Assembly (NCBI GenBank): GCA_029550925.1
Contig: JAKPGL010000010.1
Location: 1-41,262 of the forward strand
DNA from: Planctomycetota bacterium
Lineage (GTDB): Bacteria > Planctomycetota > Planctomycetia > Pirellulales > Thermoguttaceae
Direction of reading: 5' to 3'
DNA: 41,262 bases
Numbering within the stretch: the stretch's first letter is position 1; the number at the start of each line of letters is the position of its first letter. The position numbers and the translations under genes were made by a program. The notes under the pieces were generated by a model, which searched no databases, had not been told where the DNA came from, and saw nothing but the letters and a program-made list of their open reading frames with translations. Below are positions 12,942 to 29,081 of this stretch, piece after piece.

Positions 12942-14375
12942 TCAATAATCCAGTCGGAATGGATCAACCTTGATCCATCGTTCGGCGCCTTCCAGCTCGT
13001 TAGCTCGGCGGACCACATCGTCGGCCCAACGCAGGTCCAGGTGGCCGACTTTCCCGGTATCCTGATCCAGCACGGCTTGCAGCCCTCGATTCACCTCCGA
13101 CCATGCCTTCCACACTCGGTCGGAAACTTGCTGCTGGTACTGGTAGGATTGCTGCTGGATGTCAAAGGCCTCCTGCTGGGTTTGCAGGGCCTTGGCCAGC
13201 CGAGATTGATGCACCTTATCACTCACCTTCCAAGAACCCCAGATTTCCAGAAGTGTTTTGAGGTTTTGGCGAAACTTGGCTGCCGGGGCAGAGACAAACG
13301 AATTGTAATACATCCAGGACTGAGGACTGACCGGCGCCATATTGACATAGGCCAACGATTCGACAGGCAACCATTGGCCGGCCTGTTCTTTTTCCCATGT
13401 AAAATGCACGATGGCAGCTTGTCCGCCCAGGGTGGCCGGGGCAGGTTCCGAATGGATCACCCGGCCCCATCGCATGGCCGGCAGTCCTTTCGCTTGGTTT
13501 ATGCGAGCCACAATCTGAAACACGTCTGCCGTGGCCCGTTCAGGATTGGAGTACGCGGCCACGGGGAAGGTATCCGGCAGGGGCATCAGCGACATGGCTG
13601 CCGCCTCCGGCGTCAACACCTGAGTGGCATATCCCAGTTCGATACCACCCTGGGGGCCTTCGGCGCTAATGCAACCTTGTTGGGGAGTGTTGACGCTGGT
13701 GATCCGCCAGCCTTCGGGAAGCCGAATCGATCCGGTCCCGTCCGGCAGGGGCACGTTTTGCCAACGAACCGGCGCAGGCGGCGGGGTCCTCCCGCCGGAA
13801 GGTGTTTTTTCAGCCCGCGCAGTTTGAGTCAAAAGAGCGACCAAGTCCTGGCCTGGCGGCGCCCAGGCGGCACTGGCATACGTCCCATCCTCGGCCACCG
13901 AGACCCGAAGCAGACCCCGAATCGGCTGGCCCCGCTCCTGCCCTTCGAACATCATGAGAAACTGTCGATCCTCTGCGTCTGCGACGGCGGAGCTACCGAA
14001 AGGTTTTACCCGCCCGCCCAAGTGAGCAGATATTTGTCGGAGGGCCTGCGACGCCGCTTGCCGAGCAGAACGAACCTCGGCGTACTGCTGCCGCCAGACC
14101 TTCCCCCTCCCCGTTTCCGTCCCACGCTGCCCTGAAGTATTCTGCACCGGGATCGCTCCCGTATCAGCCTGTATCGGCGTCCCTAGGGAACCCTGCCCAG
14201 GCGTCTGCAAGGTGTTATTGAACGTCGCCGCTGCCGCCGGATGAGAAAGCTGATTCTTTTCGTCTTCTTCCCCTTCCTCGGCCAAAACCGCCAACAGAAT
14301 CAGTAAGCCCAGCAAGCCCGCGCCGATGGCGAACAGCGTTCGCTTCTTCCCCTCGTCGATTCCGGAAGGATTCAT
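12942..14375 (-). CDS. Membrane-anchored protein of unknown function
   Basis: I do not recognise this 477-residue protein. It has a short charged N-terminus, one transmembrane segment at about residues 13-31, an acidic stretch (EEGEEDEK), a ~60-residue low-complexity Gln/Thr/Gly linker, and then a large domain predicted to lie outside the membrane. That domain includes VPLPDGTGSIRLPEGWRI, a phrase common in proteins that test secreted-domain stability or lipoproteins of unknown role. The last ~110 residues are Gln-rich and helical (QTQQEAFDIQQQSYQYQQQ), probably a coiled coil. The longest frame starts at 14510; the ATG at 14375 has a GGGGGA sequence upstream and puts the hydrophobic segment at the normal place. 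It may share regulation with the transporter gene 258 bp downstream. Confidence 0.7.
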   Translation of the reverse strand: MNPSGIDEGKKRTLFAIGAGLLGLLILLAVLAEEGEEDEKNQLSHPAAAATFNNTLQTPGQGSLGTPIQADTGAIPVQNTSGQRGTETGRGKVWRQQYAEVRSARQAASQALRQISAHLGGRVKPFGSSAVADAEDRQFLMMFEGQERGQPIRGLLRVSVAEDGTYASAAWAPPGQDLVALLTQTARAEKTPSGGRTPPPAPVRWQNVPLPDGTGSIRLPEGWRITSVNTPQQGCISAEGPQGGIELGYATQVLTPEAAAMSLMPLPDTFPVAAYSNPERATADVFQIVARINQAKGLPAMRWGRVIHSEPAPATLGGQAAIVHFTWEKEQAGQWLPVESLAYVNMAPVSPQSWMYYNSFVSAPAAKFRQNLKTLLEIWGSWKVSDKVHQSRLAKALQTQQEAFDIQQQSYQYQQQVSDRVWKAWSEVNRGLQAVLDQDTGKVGHLDLRWADDVVRRANELEGAERWIKVDPFRLDY

Positions 14376-14742
14376 GGCTTTCCCCCTTTGGAAAAAAAGA
14401 AAGATGGTTTCCGCCAGCACCAATCCCCCTATTGGTCCAGGGGACGAAAAGGCGTCGGCCCTCGTCAGATGACGATACTCAAGCCTACGTTGCGATCGGG
14501 GACAAGCCAAACAACTCTTTAGAGGGGGCCTCTAAAAACTTCCGGTTTTTCGAGAAACGGGAAGCTATCCACTGCCGCTTCAAAAAGGACTAGATTCCTC
14601 GTATGAAGCAGCGTCTATCAGACGGTCTGTTGCCTGGACATTCAAGGCCAGGCTGACAAGACTGGAACCCAGTCGCTCTCTGCGCAAAAAGGACAGGGGA
14701 AGACGGTACAGAAACGGTAGGGCGTGGTGGGGGTTGTCTAGG
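14376..14742. other. 367-bp intergenic region with a tight inverted repeat
   Basis: It holds one striking element, TTTAGAGG-GGG-CCTCTAAA (14518-14536), an 8-bp perfect stem with a 3-base loop, similar to the hairpin at 10694. It lies between the stop of the giant gene and the start of the next minus-strand gene, so it could end the giant transcript. I see nothing else definite. Confidence 0.4.
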
Positions 14743-17700
14743 TCAACCAGAAGCGGCTCTCCGGCGGCGCGAATACCTATAGCCCAACAAGCCCGCCGCT
14801 CCTAGCAGAAGCAGCACCAGTGTGCTCGGCTCCGGAATGCTGGGCGGATTGTCGAAGCTAATGAAGGCGAAGACGAACTGGGTGTCTTCCAACACTAGAC
14901 CGGGTAGGTCAAACGAGTAGATTAGGAAATCGTCGCCCAGTGCCTGGTAGGCCAGGATGTTGTCATCCGCAGCGCCGGTGTCGGACCAGATTTTCGCCGC
15001 GGTCAGAAGCAACATGCCGGTCTCCGGCGACTCGTCGGTAATATCCAGCAGATACTGTCCGGTACCCAGCTTGGTTACCGAGAAGAGCTCTTCGCCGGCC
15101 CCTTGGACCACATTGCCCTGTTCGTCGATCAGGCCGCCGATCAGCCCCTTGGTGAAGTAGGGGATATACAGGACGCTGAAGTCGTCCTGGACGTAGCTAG
15201 TGATATTTTGATCATTGCCACGCACGGCCAATAGCCAGCCGTTGTGATCCGGCAGGATGCCGGCACTAACCACCCGATTGGAGTTGGAGCCGCCGATGGC
15301 AAACAGCATCCCATCGGCCAAGGAATCGACGCCTGGAATCTGAAGTTGGTATCGGCCCGTGCCGACCTGGGTGAACATACTTTGGCTGATTCCCTGGGAG
15401 GCCCAAACCTGACCGCTGGCATTGACATGGGCGCCCCACCAGGAGCCGCTGAAGGGGAACCAAGCCGCCGCCAGGTCGATGTTCAATTCGCTATTATCCG
15501 AGCCGGCCACCGCGGTGGCTAACCAAGCATTAGCCGGTTGCTCGGCCGACACCTCCACCGAAGCATACCGGACCCCATATCCATCTTGGTTATCCCGGCC
15601 CAGATTCCGAACCGTAGCCATTAAAATCCCCTGGTTGAGATTCACCGGGGCACCGTCCCTGGCCATATAGAAATCTCCTGTATTGGCCTGCCAGAGATAG
15701 AAGCCCGGTGTGGCCTGCGGCGTGGTTACCGTAATCGAAGCGGCCGTATTCCCGGTATCCTTTTGCACCACACGCAGATTGGCTGCCGCCACGCTCTTGG
15801 GATCTACTAACCGAAGCTGCGGCTCGCTGGGCGGATTGTCAAACGGAATAAAGGTGACCCAAAACCGGGTGTCCTGCAAACTGGGTTCCGCATTGCCCAG
15901 GTCGTAGCCCCGGATGACAAACTCATCGCCCTCAGCCGTGTAGGTCAGAATGTTGTCCTGGTTGGCGGTGTTATAGGTGGATACCGGCGTCAGCAGCAGG
16001 ACGCCATCCGATGGACTATAGCCGGGCACCCGGAGCCGATACACGCCCGTGCCGGTTCGGAAGCCATAGAGCTTGCCGGTGGAATTGTCCATGTAGCCCT
16101 GCTCGTTGATTTCGGCGGCGATCAGGTTCCGAGTGCCATAGGGGACAAAGACAAAGGAGAAGTCGTCGTTTTCGAAGTTTTGGTTGAAGTTGACCACGTT
16201 GACGGTCCAGCCGGAGCCGTCCGATTTGGCCGCCACACTGGCGGCATTGTTTTCGTTTTCGCCGGCCGTGGCCAGCAACATGCCGCTTCGGCGGGTGTCG
16301 CCCGAGCCGGGCAGATACACATCATATTGGCCGGTGGTGCTGGGCGAATCGATCACATGGGTGCCGATGACTAGGCCCGGGGCACCGATGATCTGTTGCA
16401 TGGGGCCGTCGGCGGTCCCGTCGTTACCGGTTACATAGCCGCCCAACCACCCCTGAGCAAACGGGAAGAAGGCGACGGTGGTATTGACGTTCATTTCATT
16501 GCCGTTGTAATTGTTACCCGCCCGATGGGTAGCCAGACCTGGCGCCTGCACGCCGCCGAAATCCACTTTGTAATTGACGGCCACCATGCCGATTCCACCG
16601 GCAGGTTCGCCCGTGTCGCTCCGGGCGTCTTCGCACACGCTGGCCAGCAAGGCCCCCTTGGTTAGATCAATGACCTGGCCGTTTTGCCGAAGCTGATAGT
16701 CGCCTCGGTTCCAGAAGGGGGCGGTAACGTAGCCGCTGCCTTCCACATCCACATGGACGGCGTCCGGGTTGCCGCCGGTATTGTTCTGGATGACGGTAAG
16801 TTTGCTGGCGGTTACCTGGGCGGTCGGATCGAACAGACGTTGCCCCGGAGCCGTGGGCGGATTGTCGAACGGGATAAAGGCAAATGAGAAGACCGGAAAA
16901 TTGAAGACATCCTCCAACACGGGAGGATTATTGGGCAAATCTCGAACCTGGATGATCCAGTCGTTGCCGTCGGCCTGGTAGGTAACAATGTTATCCCGGG
17001 TGCCGCCTGTCTGGACATCGCCGGTAACCAGCAGGGCGCCGGTGGTGGGATTTTGCCCGGGGATCGTGAGCCGATAGGTGCCCACATCGATCCGGCGGAG
17101 CGTGAAATTGCCCGATTTATTGAACAGGCCGCCTTCGCCTGAAACCCGCCCCATGACCACTCCCGGCGTATCAAACGGGATATAGGCAAAAGCGATGGGG
17201 TCTTGTTCTAATCCAGAACCATCCACGCCATTGTCATGGACCATCAGGATAAACTGGCTTCCGTCGGTGGCCGGGCCGGCCATGGCGTAGTTGCCCTCGT
17301 TTTTGCCATGATTGACAAAGACCAGCCCGTCGCGCAAGGCGTTCACGCCGGGAAGCCGGAGATAAAATTGGCCGTTTTGGTTATCGATAAACTCTTCGCC
17401 CAGGTCGATGCCTGGCGTGGCAACCAAACTGGTAATAGGCCCGCCATTGGTGGAAACCATGGCATGCCCGGCCTGCCAACCGCCGGAAAACGGGAAATAG
17501 ACGGCCGCCACGTCGATGTTGTGTTCCGTGGTAGCATAACCACCGGCGCTAACCCGGTAGGTATTCACATAATAGGTGCTGCCATCCCGGACGGTAACGC
17601 TTTGGGCGAACCAATTGCCCTGGCCATCGCCGTTGTCTCGGCCGTTTTGCCGAACGCTACTGATGACCACCCCGCCGTCGGCACTGACCGGAACTCCGTC

Positions 17701-20700
17701 GATCGAAAGCCAATAGGTACCCCGATTCGCATTGGACACGGTAAAGGCTTCGGTGGATTGTTCGGTAAAGGCCGACACGGAGGTGCCCGTATCGCCGGTA
17801 TCATGCTGGATGACCCGGATATTGCCGGCGGCCAAGGCGTTCGGGTTGAGCGTGCGAAGCTGCGGATTGCGCGGCGGATTGTCGAAACCGATAAAGGCGA
17901 AGTAGAAATCGGTATCCTGCGGCCCATGGGTGTTATCGCCCTGCATGTCCCAGCCCTGGATCAGGAAATCATTGCCGTCTGGCTTGTAACAAAGGGCATT
18001 ATCGCTGCTGGAGTTAGCGTGGGTGGCCGTCAGCAGGAGCATTCCGGTTTGTGGGCTTTGGCCGGGGATGCTGAGCCGATACAGCCCAGTGCCTTCCCGC
18101 ACCAGGCTGAATTGGCCGGTCTTGTTTTGTACATATCCATACCAGTTGACCTGCCCGGCTATCAGATTTTCCGTACCGTAGGGCAAAAAGACGTAATTGA
18201 ACGGATCGTTGCCTTCGATCCCAGAGCTATTATCCATCAGGCGCACGGTCCAGCCCATGCCGTCGGAAAGCGGATTGACCGTAGCCACATTGTCATCGGT
18301 GCCGGTGCCGGGCGTATGTCCGGCGGCCGTAGCCAGCAGCACGCCGCTTCGGCGGGTATCGCCTGAGCCGGAGATGGTCAAGGTAGTGGTTCCATCGGAG
18401 CCGACCACCGCCGTACCACCCTGAAACCCTAGGGCAAACGGGAAGTAGGCCACCGCCACGTCGATATTGTGCGACTGCTGATTGACCGGATCAGCCGCCG
18501 CCGTATAGACCTTGTACGCTCCGCCGCTCAGATAGACGTTGACCACGCCGTAATCGCTTTTGCCGCCGGTGCCGGAATTATCCCGCCGGTGATCCCGCAC
18601 CGTGGCCAAGAGCACGCCCAGATTGGGATCCAACGGCACGCCGTTTTGATACAGGGCCATATCGCCCCGGGTAAAGGTGGGCGTAGTGAGATACCCCGTG
18701 CCTTCAGTAACCATCACTTGGTTTTCGCCTACTCCGGTGCCGGGGCTGATTTCGGTAACCTGGATATTGGCCGCAGCCACCTGGCTGGCCGGGTCAAAAT
18801 TCCGCACACCCGGATTTGTCGGCGGATTCTGCAGCGGAACAAACGCGAAACTGAAGGCCGGGTTGTTGCCCGCATCCCATAATGTCGGAACCGTATTGGA
18901 GCTCCAATCCCGCACTTCAATCACAAAATCGTTGCCATCGGCCTGGTAGGAAATAGCCTTATCCGAGGCAGCCGAAAGGGCATCGACGGTCAACAGCAAC
19001 ATGCCGGTCTCGGGCGTTTGGCCGGGAATGCTCAGCCGATAGGTGCCTGTTCCAGTCCGCCGGAGGGTAAATTGGCCGCTTTTGTTATACAAGCCGCCGA
19101 CGCCGGAGACCCGGCCCATCGGCACCCCCGGAGTATCATACGGGATATAGACGAAACTGATCGGATCGTTTTCGTTGCCGCCGCTGTCGGAATCATGAGG
19201 TTCCAGCACAAAATAGGTTCCATCGGCCGACGGCCCTGCCGCACCGAAATTGTTCTCATCTTTGCCGCCGTTGGCAAAGATCAGGCCGTCCTTGAAGGCG
19301 TTGACCGGATCAACGCCGGCGTTTTTCTTCAGCCATAATTGATATTCACCGGCCGGACTTGCCACGTCGATCAGATTGGTTCCGAGCTGGATATCCGAAC
19401 TGCCGATGAAGGTAGTCATTTCGCCGTTGTTTTCGGAGTTGAGCAGCAGTCCGCCTTGCCAACCGGCCGCATAGGGGAAATAGGCTACCGCCACATTGAC
19501 GTTCCATTCGCCGGGCCAAGTGGGATACCCGGCCCAGTGGGTGGAAACCTGCCAGGTGCCGGCGCCGGTAGGATTAGTATGGTTGGTAGCAATGATGGCA
19601 TATCGGGTATCCGAGGCGCTGGGCGGATTCAGTCGGCCGTTTTCCCGGACGCTGGCCATTAGTACGCCGGCTGTAGCCGGAATCGGCGCTCCGTTCTGAT
19701 AGATCTGATAATCCCCCTTGGTCCAGACCGGAGTGGTCAGATATCCGCTGCCTTCGGTAACTTCCACATGCAGGTTTTCGCCCGCATCGCCGGAACCGTA
19801 TTCAATGACCTGGATATTGGCGGCGGCTACCTGGCTGTTCGGATTAAACACCCTGCCGCCCGGCACGACCGGCGGATTGGCAAACGGAATAAAGGCAAAG
19901 GAAAAGGCCGGCACCCCGCCCACATCTTGCAAGTTCGGCGGCTCATTATTGTTGATGTCCCGGGATTGGATGATAAAGTCGTTGCCGTCGGCCTGGTAGG
20001 AAATAATATTGTCGTTGGCAATCGAGGTGGCATCCGAGGTCAACAGCAACATGCCGGTCTCGGGCGTTTGGCCGGGAATGCTGAGCCGATAGGTGCCGAC
20101 GCCTTCCCGCCGGATGGTAAACTGGCCTGCTCGGTTGTAGATGCCGCCCAGGCCGGAAATCCGGCCCATGACCACATTGGCCGTGTCGTAGGGCAGATAG
20201 AGCAGCGAAAGCGGTCCGTCTTCCTGGCCGCTCGACCAGTTGTCCCGGAGTTGGATTTCAAATTGGCTCCCATCCGCCAGAGCGCCGGCGGCGGCGAAAT
20301 TGTTGCTATTGGAGCCGCCGTTGGCAAAGACCAGACCGTCGGTTCGGGTATCCACGCCGGGCAAACTGAGCCGCCAAGTGCCGGTGCCGGTCCGGGTCAA
20401 ATTCGAAGAAGAGATATTCACCGAACTGGCTCGGATCACCGGCGTGCCGGAAACCACATCCCCATGCGCCCCGGTCCAATCGCCGGCAAACGGAAACCAG
20501 GCCGCCGCCAGGTCGATGTTCAGCTCATCACCGTATCGGTTGTCGTTCCCGGCCGGATTGGTGGCTAGCCAAGCATTCCGGCCCCACGGAGTAGCGTCGC
20601 AGGCGGTCTCGACCGTGGCGTATCGGATTCCGGCCCCATCGTTATTATCCCGTCCATTGTTCCGAACCGTCGCCAGGAGAACGCCGTTGTTTAGATCGAC

Positions 20701-21855
20701 CCGTTGGCTATTGACTGCAATATAATAGTCGCCGGTGTTCCAATCGGGAACCGAAAAGCCCGGAGTACCTTGAGGGACAGTAACCGTAGCCGAAGTTTTG
20801 TCGCCCCACTGGTTGGGATGTTCTGGGTCATCCGGATTATTCTGGAGCCAGTTCTGGACGATCCGGATATTGCCCGCTTCGACCCGGTAGGGCGGGTCGC
20901 CGAATCGGGCCTGGAAATCCATCGAGAGGGTAAACTGGCTGGCCGGATCGGTCTTATAGCGGGGATCGGGATTGAGCGGCACACCAGGGGTATAGGTTTG
21001 CACACGGATTTCACTGGCCGCCTCGTCGATCTGGATGATCCGCAGCCAGCCGTCCCCGCCGTTGGGATAATTCTGATAGTCGGCCAGCAGTTGGAAAACC
21101 GGCTGGCCAGCCGTATTATTGGAGATTAATCGCGCCTCCCCGTGATAATGGCCCGAAAGCACCATGAACACCTGAGAATAGGGATAGACCAACTGTTGGA
21201 AGATGGTTTCGGGTGAATTGCCGCCGGTGGCCGCACTGGTCGAGCGCACCCCCGCCGTGGTAATAAAATCATGGGTGGAAATGATCGTCGGCGTATTGGG
21301 GTTGGCGTTCAGGATGCTTTTGGCCCAGTCGATCGACGAGGTGCGGGCGTCGTATTCCAGGGCGATATGCAGGTACTTTCGGCCATTGGCATAGAAGATT
21401 TGATAATGGTTCAGTTGATCCGGGGAGGAACCGCCGTACCACGTTCGGCCAGCATACCGAGCCGATCCAAAATAGTTCACATAATTGGTGGCACCGCCCT
21501 GGATGTTGCCCGGCGTGTCGTAGTCGTGATTGCCCGGCGGCATGGCATACGGCAGCCAGGGGAGCGTATCGAGAACATCCACGGCCTGATCGGCCCGGTT
21601 CCATAGAGTGGTATTGCCGCCGTGGTTGACAATATCGCCCAGGCCGGAAACTAAACGTATGTTCCTAGATATAGCATTGTTCACAATCCAGGTGGTCTGC
21701 GCGGTAAAGCCGCCCAGCAGCGCATCGCTATCGCAATAGTTCTGCGTGTCTGGAAGGGCGATGATCGTAAACGGGGCGGCAAACGTATAGACTTGCCCCA
21801 CGAGAAACGCCGCCAATGTGCCCCAAACCGCCAAGCGAGGCCGCCGATGGAACAT
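14743..21855 (-). CDS. Giant secreted metallophosphoesterase with 18 repeat modules and PEP-CTERM anchor
   Basis: A 2370-residue protein. The ATG at 21855 has GGGAGGAC upstream and starts a signal peptide (hydrophobic about 8-26, cleavage near FAA-P); the longest frame from 21918 is not supported. Residues ~29-300 form a calcineurin-like phosphoesterase domain with metal motifs Asp 36-x-Gln 38, GD at 73-74, GNHD at 107-110, His 194 and GHYH at 234-237. Residues ~325-2337 are six tandem units of ~310-350 residues, each made of three related modules that start G-[VLM]-[LFV] and end in F-x-[FY]-[IL]-P-[FY]. The C-terminus is a PEP-CTERM signal: IPEP at 2340-2343, a hydrophobic helix and RRRR. 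The substrate is unknown; the likely place is the cell surface. Repeats may act as a stalk or as binding modules (inference). Confidence 0.9.
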   Translation of the reverse strand: MFHRRPRLAVWGTLAAFLVGQVYTFAAPFTIIALPDTQNYCDSDALLGGFTAQTTWIVNNAISRNIRLVSGLGDIVNHGGNTTLWNRADQAVDVLDTLPWLPYAMPPGNHDYDTPGNIQGGATNYVNYFGSARYAGRTWYGGSSPDQLNHYQIFYANGRKYLHIALEYDARTSSIDWAKSILNANPNTPTIISTHDFITTAGVRSTSAATGGNSPETIFQQLVYPYSQVFMVLSGHYHGEARLISNNTAGQPVFQLLADYQNYPNGGDGWLRIIQIDEAASEIRVQTYTPGVPLNPDPRYKTDPASQFTLSMDFQARFGDPPYRVEAGNIRIVQNWLQNNPDDPEHPNQWGDKTSATVTVPQGTPGFSVPDWNTGDYYIAVNSQRVDLNNGVLLATVRNNGRDNNDGAGIRYATVETACDATPWGRNAWLATNPAGNDNRYGDELNIDLAAAWFPFAGDWTGAHGDVVSGTPVIRASSVNISSSNLTRTGTGTWRLSLPGVDTRTDGLVFANGGSNSNNFAAAGALADGSQFEIQLRDNWSSGQEDGPLSLLYLPYDTANVVMGRISGLGGIYNRAGQFTIRREGVGTYRLSIPGQTPETGMLLLTSDATSIANDNIISYQADGNDFIIQSRDINNNEPPNLQDVGGVPAFSFAFIPFANPPVVPGGRVFNPNSQVAAANIQVIEYGSGDAGENLHVEVTEGSGYLTTPVWTKGDYQIYQNGAPIPATAGVLMASVRENGRLNPPSASDTRYAIIATNHTNPTGAGTWQVSTHWAGYPTWPGEWNVNVAVAYFPYAAGWQGGLLLNSENNGEMTTFIGSSDIQLGTNLIDVASPAGEYQLWLKKNAGVDPVNAFKDGLIFANGGKDENNFGAAGPSADGTYFVLEPHDSDSGGNENDPISFVYIPYDTPGVPMGRVSGVGGLYNKSGQFTLRRTGTGTYRLSIPGQTPETGMLLLTVDALSAASDKAISYQADGNDFVIEVRDWSSNTVPTLWDAGNNPAFSFAFVPLQNPPTNPGVRNFDPASQVAAANIQVTEISPGTGVGENQVMVTEGTGYLTTPTFTRGDMALYQNGVPLDPNLGVLLATVRDHRRDNSGTGGKSDYGVVNVYLSGGAYKVYTAAADPVNQQSHNIDVAVAYFPFALGFQGGTAVVGSDGTTTLTISGSGDTRRSGVLLATAAGHTPGTGTDDNVATVNPLSDGMGWTVRLMDNSSGIEGNDPFNYVFLPYGTENLIAGQVNWYGYVQNKTGQFSLVREGTGLYRLSIPGQSPQTGMLLLTATHANSSSDNALCYKPDGNDFLIQGWDMQGDNTHGPQDTDFYFAFIGFDNPPRNPQLRTLNPNALAAGNIRVIQHDTGDTGTSVSAFTEQSTEAFTVSNANRGTYWLSIDGVPVSADGGVVISSVRQNGRDNGDGQGNWFAQSVTVRDGSTYYVNTYRVSAGGYATTEHNIDVAAVYFPFSGGWQAGHAMVSTNGGPITSLVATPGIDLGEEFIDNQNGQFYLRLPGVNALRDGLVFVNHGKNEGNYAMAGPATDGSQFILMVHDNGVDGSGLEQDPIAFAYIPFDTPGVVMGRVSGEGGLFNKSGNFTLRRIDVGTYRLTIPGQNPTTGALLVTGDVQTGGTRDNIVTYQADGNDWIIQVRDLPNNPPVLEDVFNFPVFSFAFIPFDNPPTAPGQRLFDPTAQVTASKLTVIQNNTGGNPDAVHVDVEGSGYVTAPFWNRGDYQLRQNGQVIDLTKGALLASVCEDARSDTGEPAGGIGMVAVNYKVDFGGVQAPGLATHRAGNNYNGNEMNVNTTVAFFPFAQGWLGGYVTGNDGTADGPMQQIIGAPGLVIGTHVIDSPSTTGQYDVYLPGSGDTRRSGMLLATAGENENNAASVAAKSDGSGWTVNVVNFNQNFENDDFSFVFVPYGTRNLIAAEINEQGYMDNSTGKLYGFRTGTGVYRLRVPGYSPSDGVLLLTPVSTYNTANQDNILTYTAEGDEFVIRGYDLGNAEPSLQDTRFWVTFIPFDNPPSEPQLRLVDPKSVAAANLRVVQKDTGNTAASITVTTPQATPGFYLWQANTGDFYMARDGAPVNLNQGILMATVRNLGRDNQDGYGVRYASVEVSAEQPANAWLATAVAGSDNSELNIDLAAAWFPFSGSWWGAHVNASGQVWASQGISQSMFTQVGTGRYQLQIPGVDSLADGMLFAIGGSNSNRVVSAGILPDHNGWLLAVRGNDQNITSYVQDDFSVLYIPYFTKGLIGGLIDEQGNVVQGAGEELFSVTKLGTGQYLLDITDESPETGMLLLTAAKIWSDTGAADDNILAYQALGDDFLIYSFDLPGLVLEDTQFVFAFISFDNPPSIPEPSTLVLLLLGAAGLLGYRYSRRRRAASG
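18991..19032 (-). repeat. 42-nt tract identical to 20041-20082
   Basis: Encodes the SIPGQTPETGMLLL part of unit 2 and is identical base for base to the same part of unit 1, 1050 bp away. Flanking sequence is diverged, which suggests local gene conversion or recent unit duplication. Confidence 0.85.
20041..20082 (-). repeat. 42-nt tract identical to 18991-19032
   Basis: Partner of the tract at 18991, in unit 1 of the giant gene. Similarity continues beyond one mismatch for about 14 more bases and then falls off. Confidence 0.85.
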
Positions 21856-22512
21856 GCTTAGGTCCTCCCCCAAAATCGATAGGTCCAGGTGATAGACGTT
21901 GCGGCGGGAACCCGACACTTTACCGAGGCTTTCCCCCGTCTCGGAAAGGTGGGAAACATACAGTTCTTACCATAATTTCGCGCCGTGGGGATGTCAACCA
22001 TTTTGTCGGCCTTTTCTAAATTTCCAAGCCTACCACTGTGGGGGGGAGGTCCCATACTGCCTTTTGAAAAAAACCGCTCTCCTCCACCCCCACGCTGGGC
22101 CGGTTAGAATCAGCCAGCACTCCCACCACCTCATTCCTGGTCCTACAAACCAGGTCTGCAGCGGCCTAGGTCTGGGGCGGAAGATTTCCGAGGCCAGCCG
22201 AACCGGCCCAAACTCTCAGAGAGATTCTACTCGGCGTGTGTTTGCCCCAGATAAGAAGTTTGTAAATTTTCTGCAAACCCGGAGGGAAACCTCAGAAGAC
22301 CAAAGATACTAACACCTCACCTCGTTCGAGGAGCCTCTTTGTGCTCTGGGGTTGCTTGCAGTCGGTCGGGAAAGGCGGTATGTTAAAAAGCAGCAATGTC
22401 TCTCCGGAGTGGTTCTGGAGAAAACACACAAAAGCCCGACTCGCCAACGGGGTTTTGTCACGACAGTTCCCACGAGACGGTTTCGTTTAGTTTTTCAAAA
22501 GGAGGTCTCAGA
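21856..22512. promoter_or_regulatory. 657-bp divergent intergenic region
   Basis: This long gap separates the giant gene from the Tat-exported oxidoreductase and should carry both promoters. It contains a G-rich/C-rich imperfect inverted repeat (GTGGGGGGGAGG, 22038-22049, against CCTCCACCCCCAC, 22081-22093). Others are a GAGG-AG-CCTC hairpin (22328-22337) and the CAAAAGCCC/GGGGTTTTG element at 22429. Short open frames across it show no family resemblance or Shine-Dalgarno support. Promoter boxes could not be assigned. Confidence 0.45.
22429..22457 (+). repeat. Planctomycete-like dispersed repeat (CAAAAGCCC...GGGGTTTTG)
   Basis: CAAAAGCCC (22429-22437) and GGGGTTTTG (22449-22457) form an imperfect hairpin around an 11-base loop. 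In one frame it reads KSPTRQRGF, a phrase I recall recurring as spurious short proteins in planctomycete genomes, so it is likely a dispersed intergenic repeat. Only one copy is seen in this window. Confidence 0.45.
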
Positions 22513-26302: not shown

Positions 26303-26368
26303 GCGAAAATCTTATTGCTCCCTCAGCAGTTTGACGCGGAAGTCTTATTGCGTCCCTAGGAGTTTGAC
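26303..26368 (-). repeat. 33-bp tandem duplication at the 3' end of the ATP-grasp/GNAT gene
   Basis: Two adjacent 33-base units on the minus strand (26368-26336 and 26335-26303) match at 26 of 33 positions. The first encodes VKLLGTQ and the TAA stop plus DFR; the second, in the same frame, encodes VKLLREQ, a TAA and DFR. The stop codon itself is duplicated. Confidence 0.8.
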
Positions 26369-28018
26369 GTAGATCAGTTTATCGTCGCCGGGGGCGTAGA
26401 AGTCTTTTAAGCGGGCTTCGCACTGGTAGCCGCAACGTTGGTAGAATTGCCTGGTGGGTTCATATTGCGCCCGGCCGGAAGTTTCGATATAGATGCGTTG
26501 GCCGCCTGCCTGCTGGATGCGGCGTTCGCACTCTTGCAAGATGGCCCGGCCGAGGCCCCGGCCTTGCCGCTGCCGATGAACAGCAATCCAGTATAGGTCG
26601 AAACTGCCCGCAGTGGCTGCGATCGGGCCGTAGCAGCCGTAGCCGATCACTTGGCCCTGGTGCTCCAAAAACAGAAAATAGTATCCGCTGGCCGGCCCGG
26701 CCTGAAGGCGCTCCCGAACCAGTTCGTCGGCCACCTCGATTTCCGCCGGATTGAAAAAGCCGGTCGAACGCACGATCTCCCGGACCGCCTGCCGATCTTC
26801 CGGCCTGGGCTGATCCCGAAATTGATAGCCTGGCGGCAGGAGGGAAGTTTCACGATCTGGGGCAGGAGCTTGGCTACCCGCTGCATCGGATGGGGTTGGT
26901 TGCATTTTCCGATGGCGGTGTAGGGCGTCCTGGACGATCCGGTCGATGGCCTGGGCATAAGTAAGCCCGGCCTCGGCCACGGCAGCGGCAAACCCGGCGT
27001 CCGGCGCTAGACAGGGGTTGGTATTGATTTCCAGTATCCACGGCTGTCCCGCCGGATCGACCCGGAAATCCACCCGGGCATATCCGCCTAAATGGAATAG
27101 TTCCCAACAGGCCAGGGCCAATTGTTTCAGACGCTCTAAAAGCGGAGCGTCCGACGGGGGAAAATCGAACCGTCGCGGCGTATGGTGGTATTCAAAGCTG
27201 CCTTCTTCCCATTTGGCCGCATAGCCGACAATCCGCACCTTCTCCGGCGGAAAGGCGGAAAAGTCGATCTCGGCCGGCGGCAGGACCTCGGGTCCGTTCG
27301 GCCCGGCCAAAACGGAAAGATTGAACTCTCGGCCTTCGACGAATCGCTCGGCAAAGACAGGTCGGCCAAGCCGGTGGGCCGCCTCCGACAGGGCCGATTG
27401 CAACTGGGCCGCACTCTGCACCTGCACCACCGCTCCGTCGTCCAGCCCGATCGACGCATGTTCTCGAACCATTTTGATCAAAAAGAGGCCTTCGGAGGGT
27501 GTGGTTTCTGAGCGGCCTGCTTGGTGGGGCAAAACCGATTCCCTCTCCGTTGTCCAGACCGTGGTAGGATGAAGGAACGATCCCCCTTCAGCCGGGGTGC
27601 GTCCCAGGGTGTCTTCTCCTCCCGAGAAGAGCTGGCCGGAGGTAGGCACGATCCAATCGGGCGTGGGCAACCCCGCCAACCGGAGCAGCCGTTTGGTCAA
27701 CAGTTTATCATTGGAAATCATCAGGGCTTCGGACCGACTGCCGGTGTAGGGGATTTGGAGCACATCGAAAAGCCCCGCAGCCGCATGGGCCAGCCAATCC
27801 GAACCGCCCAACGATTCCACCAGGTTAAAGACCACCTCGGGCCGGAGACTCGACAATCGGTCTTTCAGTTCGTCCAGCCGAAGAGTGCATTCCAAGGAGA
27901 TCGGCTCATGGCCCAGTTGGCGCAAAGCGGCTTCGACGGCTTCGGCCTGCACCAGCACATCCCGATCCGCCTCATTGGCCGCCGCAGACACCTGATTGTA
28001 CAGCACGACCACTCGCAT
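26345..28018 (-). CDS. Ddl-like ATP-grasp ligase fused to a GNAT acetyltransferase
   Basis: A 557-residue two-domain protein. Residues ~1-365 resemble D-alanine-D-alanine ligases: MRVVVLYNQ, PEVVFNLVESLGG, IPYTGS, the nucleotide-binding LFLIKMVREHASIG, and the metal/ATP motif ARVDFRVD...ILEINTNPCLAPDAGF. A Ser/Thr/Gly-rich insertion of about 40 residues interrupts the central domain. Residues ~405-557 form a GNAT domain with IAVHRQRQGRGLGRAIL, the acetyl-CoA loop. It could ligate two amino acids and acetylate the product, by analogy with N-acetylglutaminylglutamine synthetase, which also joins these domains (in the other order). It follows a second ATP-grasp gene after 43 bp, so the two are probably co-transcribed. 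The product is unknown. Confidence 0.85.
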   Translation of the reverse strand: MRVVVLYNQVSAAANEADRDVLVQAEAVEAALRQLGHEPISLECTLRLDELKDRLSSLRPEVVFNLVESLGGSDWLAHAAAGLFDVLQIPYTGSRSEALMISNDKLLTKRLLRLAGLPTPDWIVPTSGQLFSGGEDTLGRTPAEGGSFLHPTTVWTTERESVLPHQAGRSETTPSEGLFLIKMVREHASIGLDDGAVVQVQSAAQLQSALSEAAHRLGRPVFAERFVEGREFNLSVLAGPNGPEVLPPAEIDFSAFPPEKVRIVGYAAKWEEGSFEYHHTPRRFDFPPSDAPLLERLKQLALACWELFHLGGYARVDFRVDPAGQPWILEINTNPCLAPDAGFAAAVAEAGLTYAQAIDRIVQDALHRHRKMQPTPSDAAGSQAPAPDRETSLLPPGYQFRDQPRPEDRQAVREIVRSTGFFNPAEIEVADELVRERLQAGPASGYYFLFLEHQGQVIGYGCYGPIAATAGSFDLYWIAVHRQRQGRGLGRAILQECERRIQQAGGQRIYIETSGRAQYEPTRQFYQRCGYQCEARLKDFYAPGDDKLIYVKLLGTQ

Positions 28019-28061
28019 CGGCTCGACCCTTTTTCGGAGGAAAAAGCCATGAGGCGTCTGG

Positions 28062-29081
28062 TTAGACTGCTCCGGCAGGCTGGCGGATGGGCTGGGTGGG
28101 CTGGATGCGTTTGGCCGCCGATTCGATAATCCAGCCGATCAGCCGCTGGTAGGGGATGCCGCGGGCCGTGCAGATCATCGGCAAATCGGAATGGGTCGGA
28201 TGCAGTCCGGCCAAGGGATTAGCCTCCAGAAATTGGGGGCGTCCCTGGGCGTCGCACCGCAGATCAAGCCGACCGGCATCCCGGCACCCCAGCACCTGCC
28301 AGGCAGCCAGGGCAATCTGTTCCGCCTGGGCTACCACAGGATCCTCCTCCGGCCGAACGAACACATAATCGACCCGCTCTTCGCAGTATTCCTTGTTCTG
28401 GTAGGAATAGACGTTTGGCTCGGCGGTGGGACGCAGGCAGATTTCCAAAGTCCCCAGCACACGGGCTTCTGGCCCGGTGCCGACCAGCCCCACCGTAAAC
28501 TCCCGACCCGGCAGATACGACTCCACCAGGACCGGCTGGTGAAATCGGCTTAGCAACTCTTCACAGCGGGCCAGTAGGCTGGACTGATCGTGGACAATCG
28601 AGGCAGGGCTAACCCCTTTGCCGGTTCCCTCGGCCACCGGTTTGACAAACAGGGGAAACTCCAGCCGAAGCTGTTCCACCTGCTCCGCTCGCTCGACCAC
28701 GGCAAAATCGGGCGTGGGCAAACCGGCCTGCCGAACCACCAACTTAGCCAACCCTTTATCCAAACAGACGGCCATCACCAACGGATCCGAAAAGGTATAA
28801 GGAATCCCGAATACGTCCAAGATGCAGGGGACTTGAGATTCCCGGGCCTGGCCGTGGATTCCCTCGGCAAAATTGAAGACCAAGTCCCAGCGGTCGCCGG
28901 CGGCCAAGCGCTGGACCAAGCGCCGGGCCGACCCGATCCGATCCACCCGATGGCCCAAGGCGGCAATCGCCTCGGCCAGAGCGTCGATCGTTTCAGGCCG
29001 ATCCAGTTCGGCGGTCTCCTCCTCGGAATAGCCAGCCGCCAGATACTCGTTTCGCAAATCGTAGGCCAATCCGATCCGCAT
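28062..29081 (-). CDS. Ddl-like ATP-grasp ligase
   Basis: A 339-residue homologue of D-alanine-D-alanine ligase and of its downstream neighbour. Features are MRIGLAYDLRNEYL, DLVFNFAEG (like the VVFNLVE of the partner), IPYTFSDPLVMAVCLDK, the ATP-binding FVKPVAEGTGKGVS, SYLPGREFTVG and the metal motif LDLRCD...FLEANPLAGLHPTHSDLP. The C-terminal GLxPxxSDLP part is close to true Ddl (NTxPGxTxxS), but EAN replaces EIN. No murein gene is nearby, so a role in a dipeptide-like metabolite is as likely as in cell-wall synthesis. The ATG has AGGAGAGG just upstream. It is the first gene of a probable two-gene operon and is divergent from the CAP gene. Confidence 0.85.
   Translation of the reverse strand: MRIGLAYDLRNEYLAAGYSEEETAELDRPETIDALAEAIAALGHRVDRIGSARRLVQRLAAGDRWDLVFNFAEGIHGQARESQVPCILDVFGIPYTFSDPLVMAVCLDKGLAKLVVRQAGLPTPDFAVVERAEQVEQLRLEFPLFVKPVAEGTGKGVSPASIVHDQSSLLARCEELLSRFHQPVLVESYLPGREFTVGLVGTGPEARVLGTLEICLRPTAEPNVYSYQNKEYCEERVDYVFVRPEEDPVVAQAEQIALAAWQVLGCRDAGRLDLRCDAQGRPQFLEANPLAGLHPTHSDLPMICTARGIPYQRLIGWIIESAAKRIQPTQPIRQPAGAV

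Follow-up and report, generated by a model that had tools for sequence, protein, structure and literature searches.

The window analyzed here, the whole 41,262-nucleotide stretch of DNA from a member of the Planctomycetota, encodes a giant protein that begins with a signal peptide, followed by a calcineurin-like metallophosphoesterase (MPE) domain and then by six units of approximately 340 residues, and that ends with a PEP-CTERM tail. Each unit consists of three related modules, a, b and c, and related proteins also carry these modules in threes; the domain order, the homology of the modules and this rule of three can be read directly from the sequences. The fold and packing of the unit are predicted, and we consider it quite probable that each unit is a natural covalent pseudo-trimer. 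That the protein as a whole is an exported MPE with six tandem pseudo-trimer knobs, likely binding extracellular ligands, and a PEP-CTERM tail seems to us an even chance. This outline, from the secreted MPE through six units with three related modules each to the PEP-CTERM tail, had already been proposed in a preliminary description of the DNA, and Pfam, NCBIfam and sequence comparisons support it.

The gene and its surroundings

The protein is encoded by a single open frame on the − strand (21918..14743), of 2391 amino acids if counted from a GTG. Residues are numbered throughout in this 2391-residue frame, in which the likely start, an ATG, is Met22. Because GGGGAGGACC lies immediately 5' of the ATG at 21855 and a signal-peptide-like stretch begins at this codon, it is the likelier start, as the preliminary description had assumed. 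The features are as follows.

14743..21855, − strand: coding sequence from the likely ATG (Met22) to the stop codon (open frame; GGGGAGGACC upstream of the ATG)
21775..21855, − strand: signal peptide, residues 22 to about 48 (judged by eye from the sequence, end estimated)
20914..21774, − strand: calcineurin-like MPE domain, residues about 49-335 (PF00149, E 2e-5; motifs; fold matches with Z up to 20.8)
19834..20886, − strand: unit 1, residues 345-695; a 346-477, b 479-577, c 579-689 (BLASTP and module profiles; modeled with the MPE domain)
18787..19833, − strand: unit 2, residues 696-1044; a 696-816, b 818-927, c 929-1040 (BLASTP and module profiles; AlphaFold2 model)
17836..18786, − strand: unit 3, residues 1045-1361; a 1046-1161, b 1174-1247 (start shortened), c 1249-1355 (BLASTP and module profiles)
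16819..17835, − strand: unit 4, residues 1362-1700; a 1363-1477, b 1479-1581, c 1584-1695 (BLASTP and module profiles)
15796..16818, − strand: unit 5, residues 1701-2041; a 1701-1820, b 1821-1927, c 1929-2037 (BLASTP and module profiles)
14848..15795, − strand: unit 6, residues 2042-2357; a 2042-2156, b 2158-2254, c 2256 to about 2357 (BLASTP and module profiles)
14758..14841, − strand: PEP-CTERM sorting signal, residues 2360-2387 (PF07589, 26.3 bits against a cut-off of 20.7; TIGR02595, 19.6 bits against a cut-off of 16)

We infer from this tail that the protein may be displayed on the surface through exosortase processing. The genome has an exosortase gene on another contig (C173; PF09721, E 2.5e-56), located approximately 0.7 kb from a Poly_export gene, which agrees with the link between PEP-CTERM sorting and exopolysaccharide described in an extract of PMC1569441. 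Pfam matches were obtained for 15 of the 18 neighboring frames scanned. Most are to families of metabolism or the envelope, and no common pathway emerges from them. Two adjacent genes at 26345-29081 (−) encode D-Ala-D-Ala-ligase-like ATP-grasp domains, in one case in fusion with a GNAT acetyltransferase domain. Directly 3' of the giant gene and on the same strand (12942-14510, −) lies a frame of 522 aa that has no Pfam match and whose N-terminal stretch is hydrophobic.

The metallophosphoesterase domain

When residues 41-345 were scanned alone, PF00149 was matched with E 2e-5 and a score of 25.5 bits, above the cut-off of 21.5; in the Pfam scan of the whole protein, Metallophos gave no match at E <= 1. 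The metal motifs of MPE domains are D-x-H, GD, GNH[DE], H and GHxH. The corresponding residues in the window protein are D57/Q59, D95, N130/H131, H216 and H257/H259, so that the earlier statement that all metal motifs are present was nearly right: GD, GNHD, H and GHxH are all there, but the first motif is D-x-Q in place of D-x-H. This substitution is shared by the relatives. Among 49 MPE sequences, taken only from domains longer than 230 residues in the loci fetched by then, the positions D, GD, GNH, H and GH are invariant and the first motif is D-x-Q in 48, in contrast to the D-x-H of calcineurin-like metallophosphoesterases. The second histidine of GHxH (H257/H259, about 21144-21136, −) is found in the window protein alone among the 49 relatives listed; elsewhere this position is occupied by L, G, S, T, C or another residue.

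The modeled domain matches the fold of Lmo2642 (Z 20.8), GpdQ (19.9), SMPDL3A (19.6), Rv0805 (19.0) and a purple acid phosphatase (18.7), in agreement with the match to PF00149. All of the 50 fold matches listed appear, by entry title, to be of the metallophosphoesterase type, with Z from 15.9 to 20.8 and 206-275 residues aligned. We would therefore expect the domain to be active as a phosphoesterase, its first metal site being somewhat unusual. Its identity to the named phosphoesterase entries is 13-16%, which is too low for a substrate to be carried over from them.

Eighteen modules and six units

All 15 pairs of the six units matched by BLASTP, with 31-46% identity (weakest E 8e-37); module b of unit 3 lacks about 30 residues at its start. 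In a profile comparison based on 97 units, the homology of the modules had a probability of 99.1% for b and c, 96.6% for a and b, and 90.9% for a and c, with scores of 97.6, 53.4 and 37.9, respectively; the highest score among 60 column shuffles of each pair was 14.7. The value for a and c changed with the size of the profiles (49% with six units, 28% with twenty and 91% with 97). The module c profile alone also matched module b in several unit proteins, at weaker E-values. The 18 repeats that had been described are therefore real, being six mutually matching units whose modules are homologous beyond shuffles, and the profile comparison speaks against the alternative, raised at the same time, that a, b and c are unrelated folds. 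With the units 31-46% identical and the homology of the modules far beyond shuffles, an artefact of assembly or of chance was ruled out. The literal motifs given for the modules hold in part: the start motif is present in 8 of the 18 modules and absent from ten, including all six c modules, and the end motif is present in 15 and absent from three. Over residues 341-2340, the start motif was counted 8 times (mean 1.7 and maximum 6 in 1000 shuffles) and the end motif 15 times (mean 2.0 and maximum 7).

A tree built from 42 units did not place the six of the window protein together (4 changes), and 0% of 200 bootstrap trees had them as a single group. A recent expansion within the window protein gains no support from this tree, in which 16 of the 39 inner branches are open and the starred branches are compatible with a single origin.

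The rule of three

For a census of modules, open frames of the fetched loci were scanned with module profiles rebuilt from 97 units, which came from the very proteins counted, and modules were counted down to E 0.5. A module at E < 1e-5 was present in 141 frames, of which 80 were left after dropping frames whose module region sits inside a longer one; 11 of these are cut by a contig or fetch end and were set aside. In 64 of the 69 uncut proteins the number of modules is divisible by three, and in 63 the order is strictly abc; since the proteins share kinship, these are not 64 independent events, and the loci were gathered mostly with whole-unit profiles, which biases the sample toward whole units. 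The architectures of the 64 are abc (16), MPE-abc (17), abc-MPE (8) and abcabc (17) and, more rarely, abc three times (2), four times (1) or six times (1), MPE followed by abc six times (1, the window protein) and abcacc (1, L159). The proteins that break the rule are L064, L053, L063 (bcabc), L103 (bcac) and L074 (bc). A hidden upstream module a has a probability of 70% in L074 and of 1-15% in the other four. By eye, an a-like pattern can be seen upstream in L064, L053 and L063, which is a reading rather than a test. An initial count, based on profiles of 20 units, had returned less regular module strings for the distant proteins L051-L054, L062-L065 and L071.

The preliminary description had asked whether the number of repeats varies between strains; among related proteins it does vary, from one to six units. 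The five copy numbers observed in the uncut proteins (1, 2, 3, 4 and 6) differ from each other by entire units. A search for lone modules with the c profile covered 147 genomes; matches were obtained in 19 of them, and all those listed lie in frames of at least 401 aa. Because 64 of the 69 uncut proteins hold multiples of three, we regard the three-module unit as the building block, in place of the 18 modules that were previously taken as the basic blocks; the same census rules out 18 equal modules as independent blocks. An MPE domain is present in 26 of the 69 uncut proteins, before the unit in 18 and after it in 8, and is missing from the other 43, so that the unit is portable. A simple pattern for a PEP-CTERM-like tail was found in 40 of the 69.

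Predicted structure of the unit

The AlphaFold2 model of unit 2, made with 20 sequences, is a single compact body (pLDDT 88.2, pTM 0.90) in which three beta modules are firmly placed relative to one another. It has 23 strands of at least three residues, seven to eight per module; the C1q/TNF domain fold is a ten-strand jelly-roll, and entries of this fold appeared solely in rows spanning the whole unit, at Z 6.9-8.2. The MPE domain and unit 1 modeled together (27 sequences) gave pLDDT 81.8 and pTM 0.68, and because the latter is below the 0.90 of the unit alone, no fixed pose of the two is predicted.

A Foldseek search of the PDB with the unit model gave no match at E <= 0.001; the first two rows were both 4zch, a single-chain APRIL-BAFF-BAFF (E 0.08, TM 0.28). 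In the VIA comparison, the rows that cover the whole unit were 5kca (Z 8.2), 5hzf (7.4), 5hkj (7.3), 4zch (7.2) and 4dou (6.9), with 236-258 residues aligned, rmsd 4.6-5.5 and 7-9% identity; a Z under 8 may reflect merely a common arrangement. Among the 50 PDB matches listed, nine have at least 150 aligned residues, and all nine are one-chain molecules of three related parts. The four besides those named are three PCSK9 entries (Z 3.6-3.9), the matched domain of which we take to be quasi-threefold, and the dUTPase of Epstein-Barr virus (EBV; Z 2.7). As for 5kca, the title, length and aligned range suggest that the chain holds a linked trimer. The argument for a pseudo-trimer thus rests on the coverage, on which entries rank at the top and on the rule of three, which the census gives independently and which is expected for a trimer-like unit.

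Module c of the model resembles the phiAB6 tailspike (Z 7.8, 2.8 Å, 90 residues, 18% identity). The matched range is presumably the C-terminal domain, with a numbering offset relative to PMC5314372. According to an excerpt of that paper, three beta-sandwiches of this domain make a dome in the trimer. Against viral models, the first match of the unit was the Syn5 tail fiber (E 3.5e-8), with a poor overall superposition (rmsd 24.6).

Searches for known relatives

By sequence, the repeats belong to no named domain that we could find. In the whole protein they gave nothing significant in Pfam or NCBIfam, and when 20 units were scanned singly the best values, each in one member, were 0.0062 in Pfam, 0.026 in PHROGs and 0.0046 in NCBIfam. 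No C1q or TNF family was matched by the whole protein (Pfam, NCBIfam) or by the 20 single units, and no tail-fiber family by the unit (Pfam, PHROGs, NCBIfam). The unit profile compared with PDB sequences had its best E, 0.42, with an unrelated chain, and the c modules gave nothing below E 0.079 in PHROGs. The match of the module c profile to the phage tail protein gp13 (9occ) was not significant (E 0.18; best stretch, i-Evalue 1.9). No unit match was found in phage records at E <= 1, and none of 38 pattern matches in viral contigs is a relative of the unit. The earlier claim that no named domain accounts for the repeat was thereby upheld for Pfam, NCBIfam, PHROGs and PDB sequences. Such a protein was not recognized in the open-licence PMC literature, as far as titles and the beginnings of abstracts tell, and it may be in print elsewhere. 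What appears to be new is an unnamed bacterial family of predicted one-chain trimers that recur in tandem and in fusion with a phosphoesterase.

Searches of genomes with the unit gave matches in 13 of 119 genomes of the family, at least 44 of 296 of the order sample and at least 4 of 392 of the phylum sample, the genome of the window being counted in each; the last two are lower bounds, up to seven candidates per genome having been scored in the order search and up to five in the phylum search. In a named collection, matches came from 11 loci, the titles of which all refer to members of Planctomycetota or Verrucomicrobiota. Thus, the unit recurs in these two phyla, often beside an MPE domain and on either flank of it. 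Both genomes of the same genus that were searched are without the unit, and the only matches in the genome of the window are the present six. A locus titled as Pirellulales (L031) and one from the family of the window (L044, genome G029) have 731-aa frames with identical domain coordinates and scores.

In a Pfam scan of ten unit proteins, some had Ig-like, passenger-associated, RTX, RHS, choice-of-anchor or lamin-tail domains. A second protein with six units, of different make-up from the window protein, is encoded at L142:4752-15380 (G702); it has 3543 aa, with six complete units and Ig-like, cadherin-like and lamin-tail domains, and an MPE domain was not detected in it. At two loci of Verrucomicrobiota (L034:5255-13150 and L036:4167-11794), the gene for a unit-only protein of about 1400 aa directly precedes, on the same strand, that for a unit-MPE protein; these neighbors are possibly a conserved gene pair. 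In both L039:9914-15475 and L040:9863-15403, an insertion of about 60-110 residues interrupts module c of the first unit. L040 is titled Akkermansia muciniphila, yet it resembles L039 from another bin, and a binning error may explain the label.

Comparison with known trimers

According to the model, the unit resembles the engineered single-chain trimers of the C1q/TNF fold, namely the C1q head (5hkj, 5hzf), adiponectin (4dou), APRIL-BAFF-BAFF (4zch) and Cbln1 (5kca), in having three related beta-sandwich domains in one chain. In the engineered C1q head, as an extract of PMC4774423 describes it, three monomers are linked in tandem and binding is kept. Such trimers are designs from animal proteins, whereas the unit is natural and bacterial and occurs up to six times in one chain; there is no detectable sequence relation, the identity in the alignments being 7-9%. 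The likeness of module c to the phiAB6 tailspike cap differs in another way, since in the phage three chains contribute one domain each, whereas the unit has three diverged domains in one chain. The molluscan proteins CfC1qDC-2 and HcC1qDC5 have three C1q domains each (extract of PMC10672478), but they are animal proteins and, unlike the unit, are C1q by sequence. In the monomeric dUTPases of herpesviruses, one chain replaces a jelly-roll homotrimer, although the chain is about twofold larger than the subunit and is not a threefold repeat (both from part of PMC8961515). The EBV dUTPase resembles the unit weakly in structure, and it is an enzyme of another family. The engineered C1q heads, the mollusc chains and these dUTPases make a one-chain stand-in for a trimer a known idea.

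Interpretation

One possible explanation, to which as a whole we give slightly less than an even chance, is that the units are a family of natural single-chain trimers of Planctomycetota and Verrucomicrobiota, fused and diverged from protomers like those of tailspike caps or C1q and then put to use as a portable recognition knob. A protein would carry one to six such knobs, with a phosphoesterase placed before or after them where there is one; the window protein would be a surface receptor with an enzyme and six heads, resembling in form the six-headed C1q. In our main reading, an old triplication would have led to a covalent pseudo-trimer, with modules a, b and c in the subunit places of a C1q/TNF-like or tailspike-cap-like trimer; in one chain, the three faces of such a trimer can diverge. 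The chain would be exported and then sorted through its PEP-CTERM tail, displaying the enzyme and six knobs. The knobs would grip repeating extracellular polymers (exopolysaccharide, matrix or particle glycans) with avidity and, when bound, would keep the MPE domain close to a phosphate-containing substrate. Both C1q heads and the tips of phage tails serve in recognition, and by this analogy polymers are the most likely ligands. The idea that the repeats bind a polymer, already present in the preliminary description, is therefore the one that we favor; provided that the units are pseudo-trimers, binding is somewhat more probable than mere spacing.

The preliminary description had put first a long beta-rich stalk that keeps the enzyme away from the cell. 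On this reading the units would be mechanical spacers with no ligand of their own. The six tandem units between the enzyme and the C-terminal sorting tail would suit this function, as would the Ig-like and cadherin-like domains of some relatives. However, 41 of the 69 uncut proteins have a single unit and 43 have no MPE domain to be held, and in 8 of the 69 the unit precedes the MPE domain and so is not located between it and the C-terminus; compact pseudo-trimers would also be unusual as spacers. We thus consider the stalk rather unlikely. If each unit is a pseudo-trimer, the protein is an enzyme with six knobs and not a uniform stalk, and the stalk yields to this reading on the compact model of the unit and the alignments with single-chain trimers.

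The same alignments could also arise if the modules were beta-sandwiches packed side by side without trimer geometry, the likeness being a common arrangement. The weak Foldseek scores (E 0.08, TM 0.28) and Z values mostly below 8 are in line with such packing, but all nine of the matches with at least 150 aligned residues, among the 50 listed, are one-chain three-part molecules, and the rule of three, seen independently, is what a trimer predicts; side-by-side packing is accordingly improbable in our judgment. Still less probable is that the knobs act on the enzyme, by packing on the MPE domain and shaping its active site, or on each other in larger arrays. An MPE domain does stand beside the unit in both orders (before it in 18 and after it in 8 of the 69 uncut proteins), but the joint model (pTM 0.68 against 0.90) predicts no fixed pose, and several MPE homologues are in open frames of about 314-331 aa, which are too short for a unit.

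If the units are single-chain trimers with a binding function, the puzzle of 18 repeats becomes a testable claim on one domain of 340 residues. This unnamed domain would be a natural version of the tandem-linked C1q or TNF trimers of engineers, and it would supply a set of naturally diverged single-chain trimers. A likely recognition module would be named for surface proteins that are sparsely annotated, and the family would show a homotrimer turning into one chain with three freely evolving faces.
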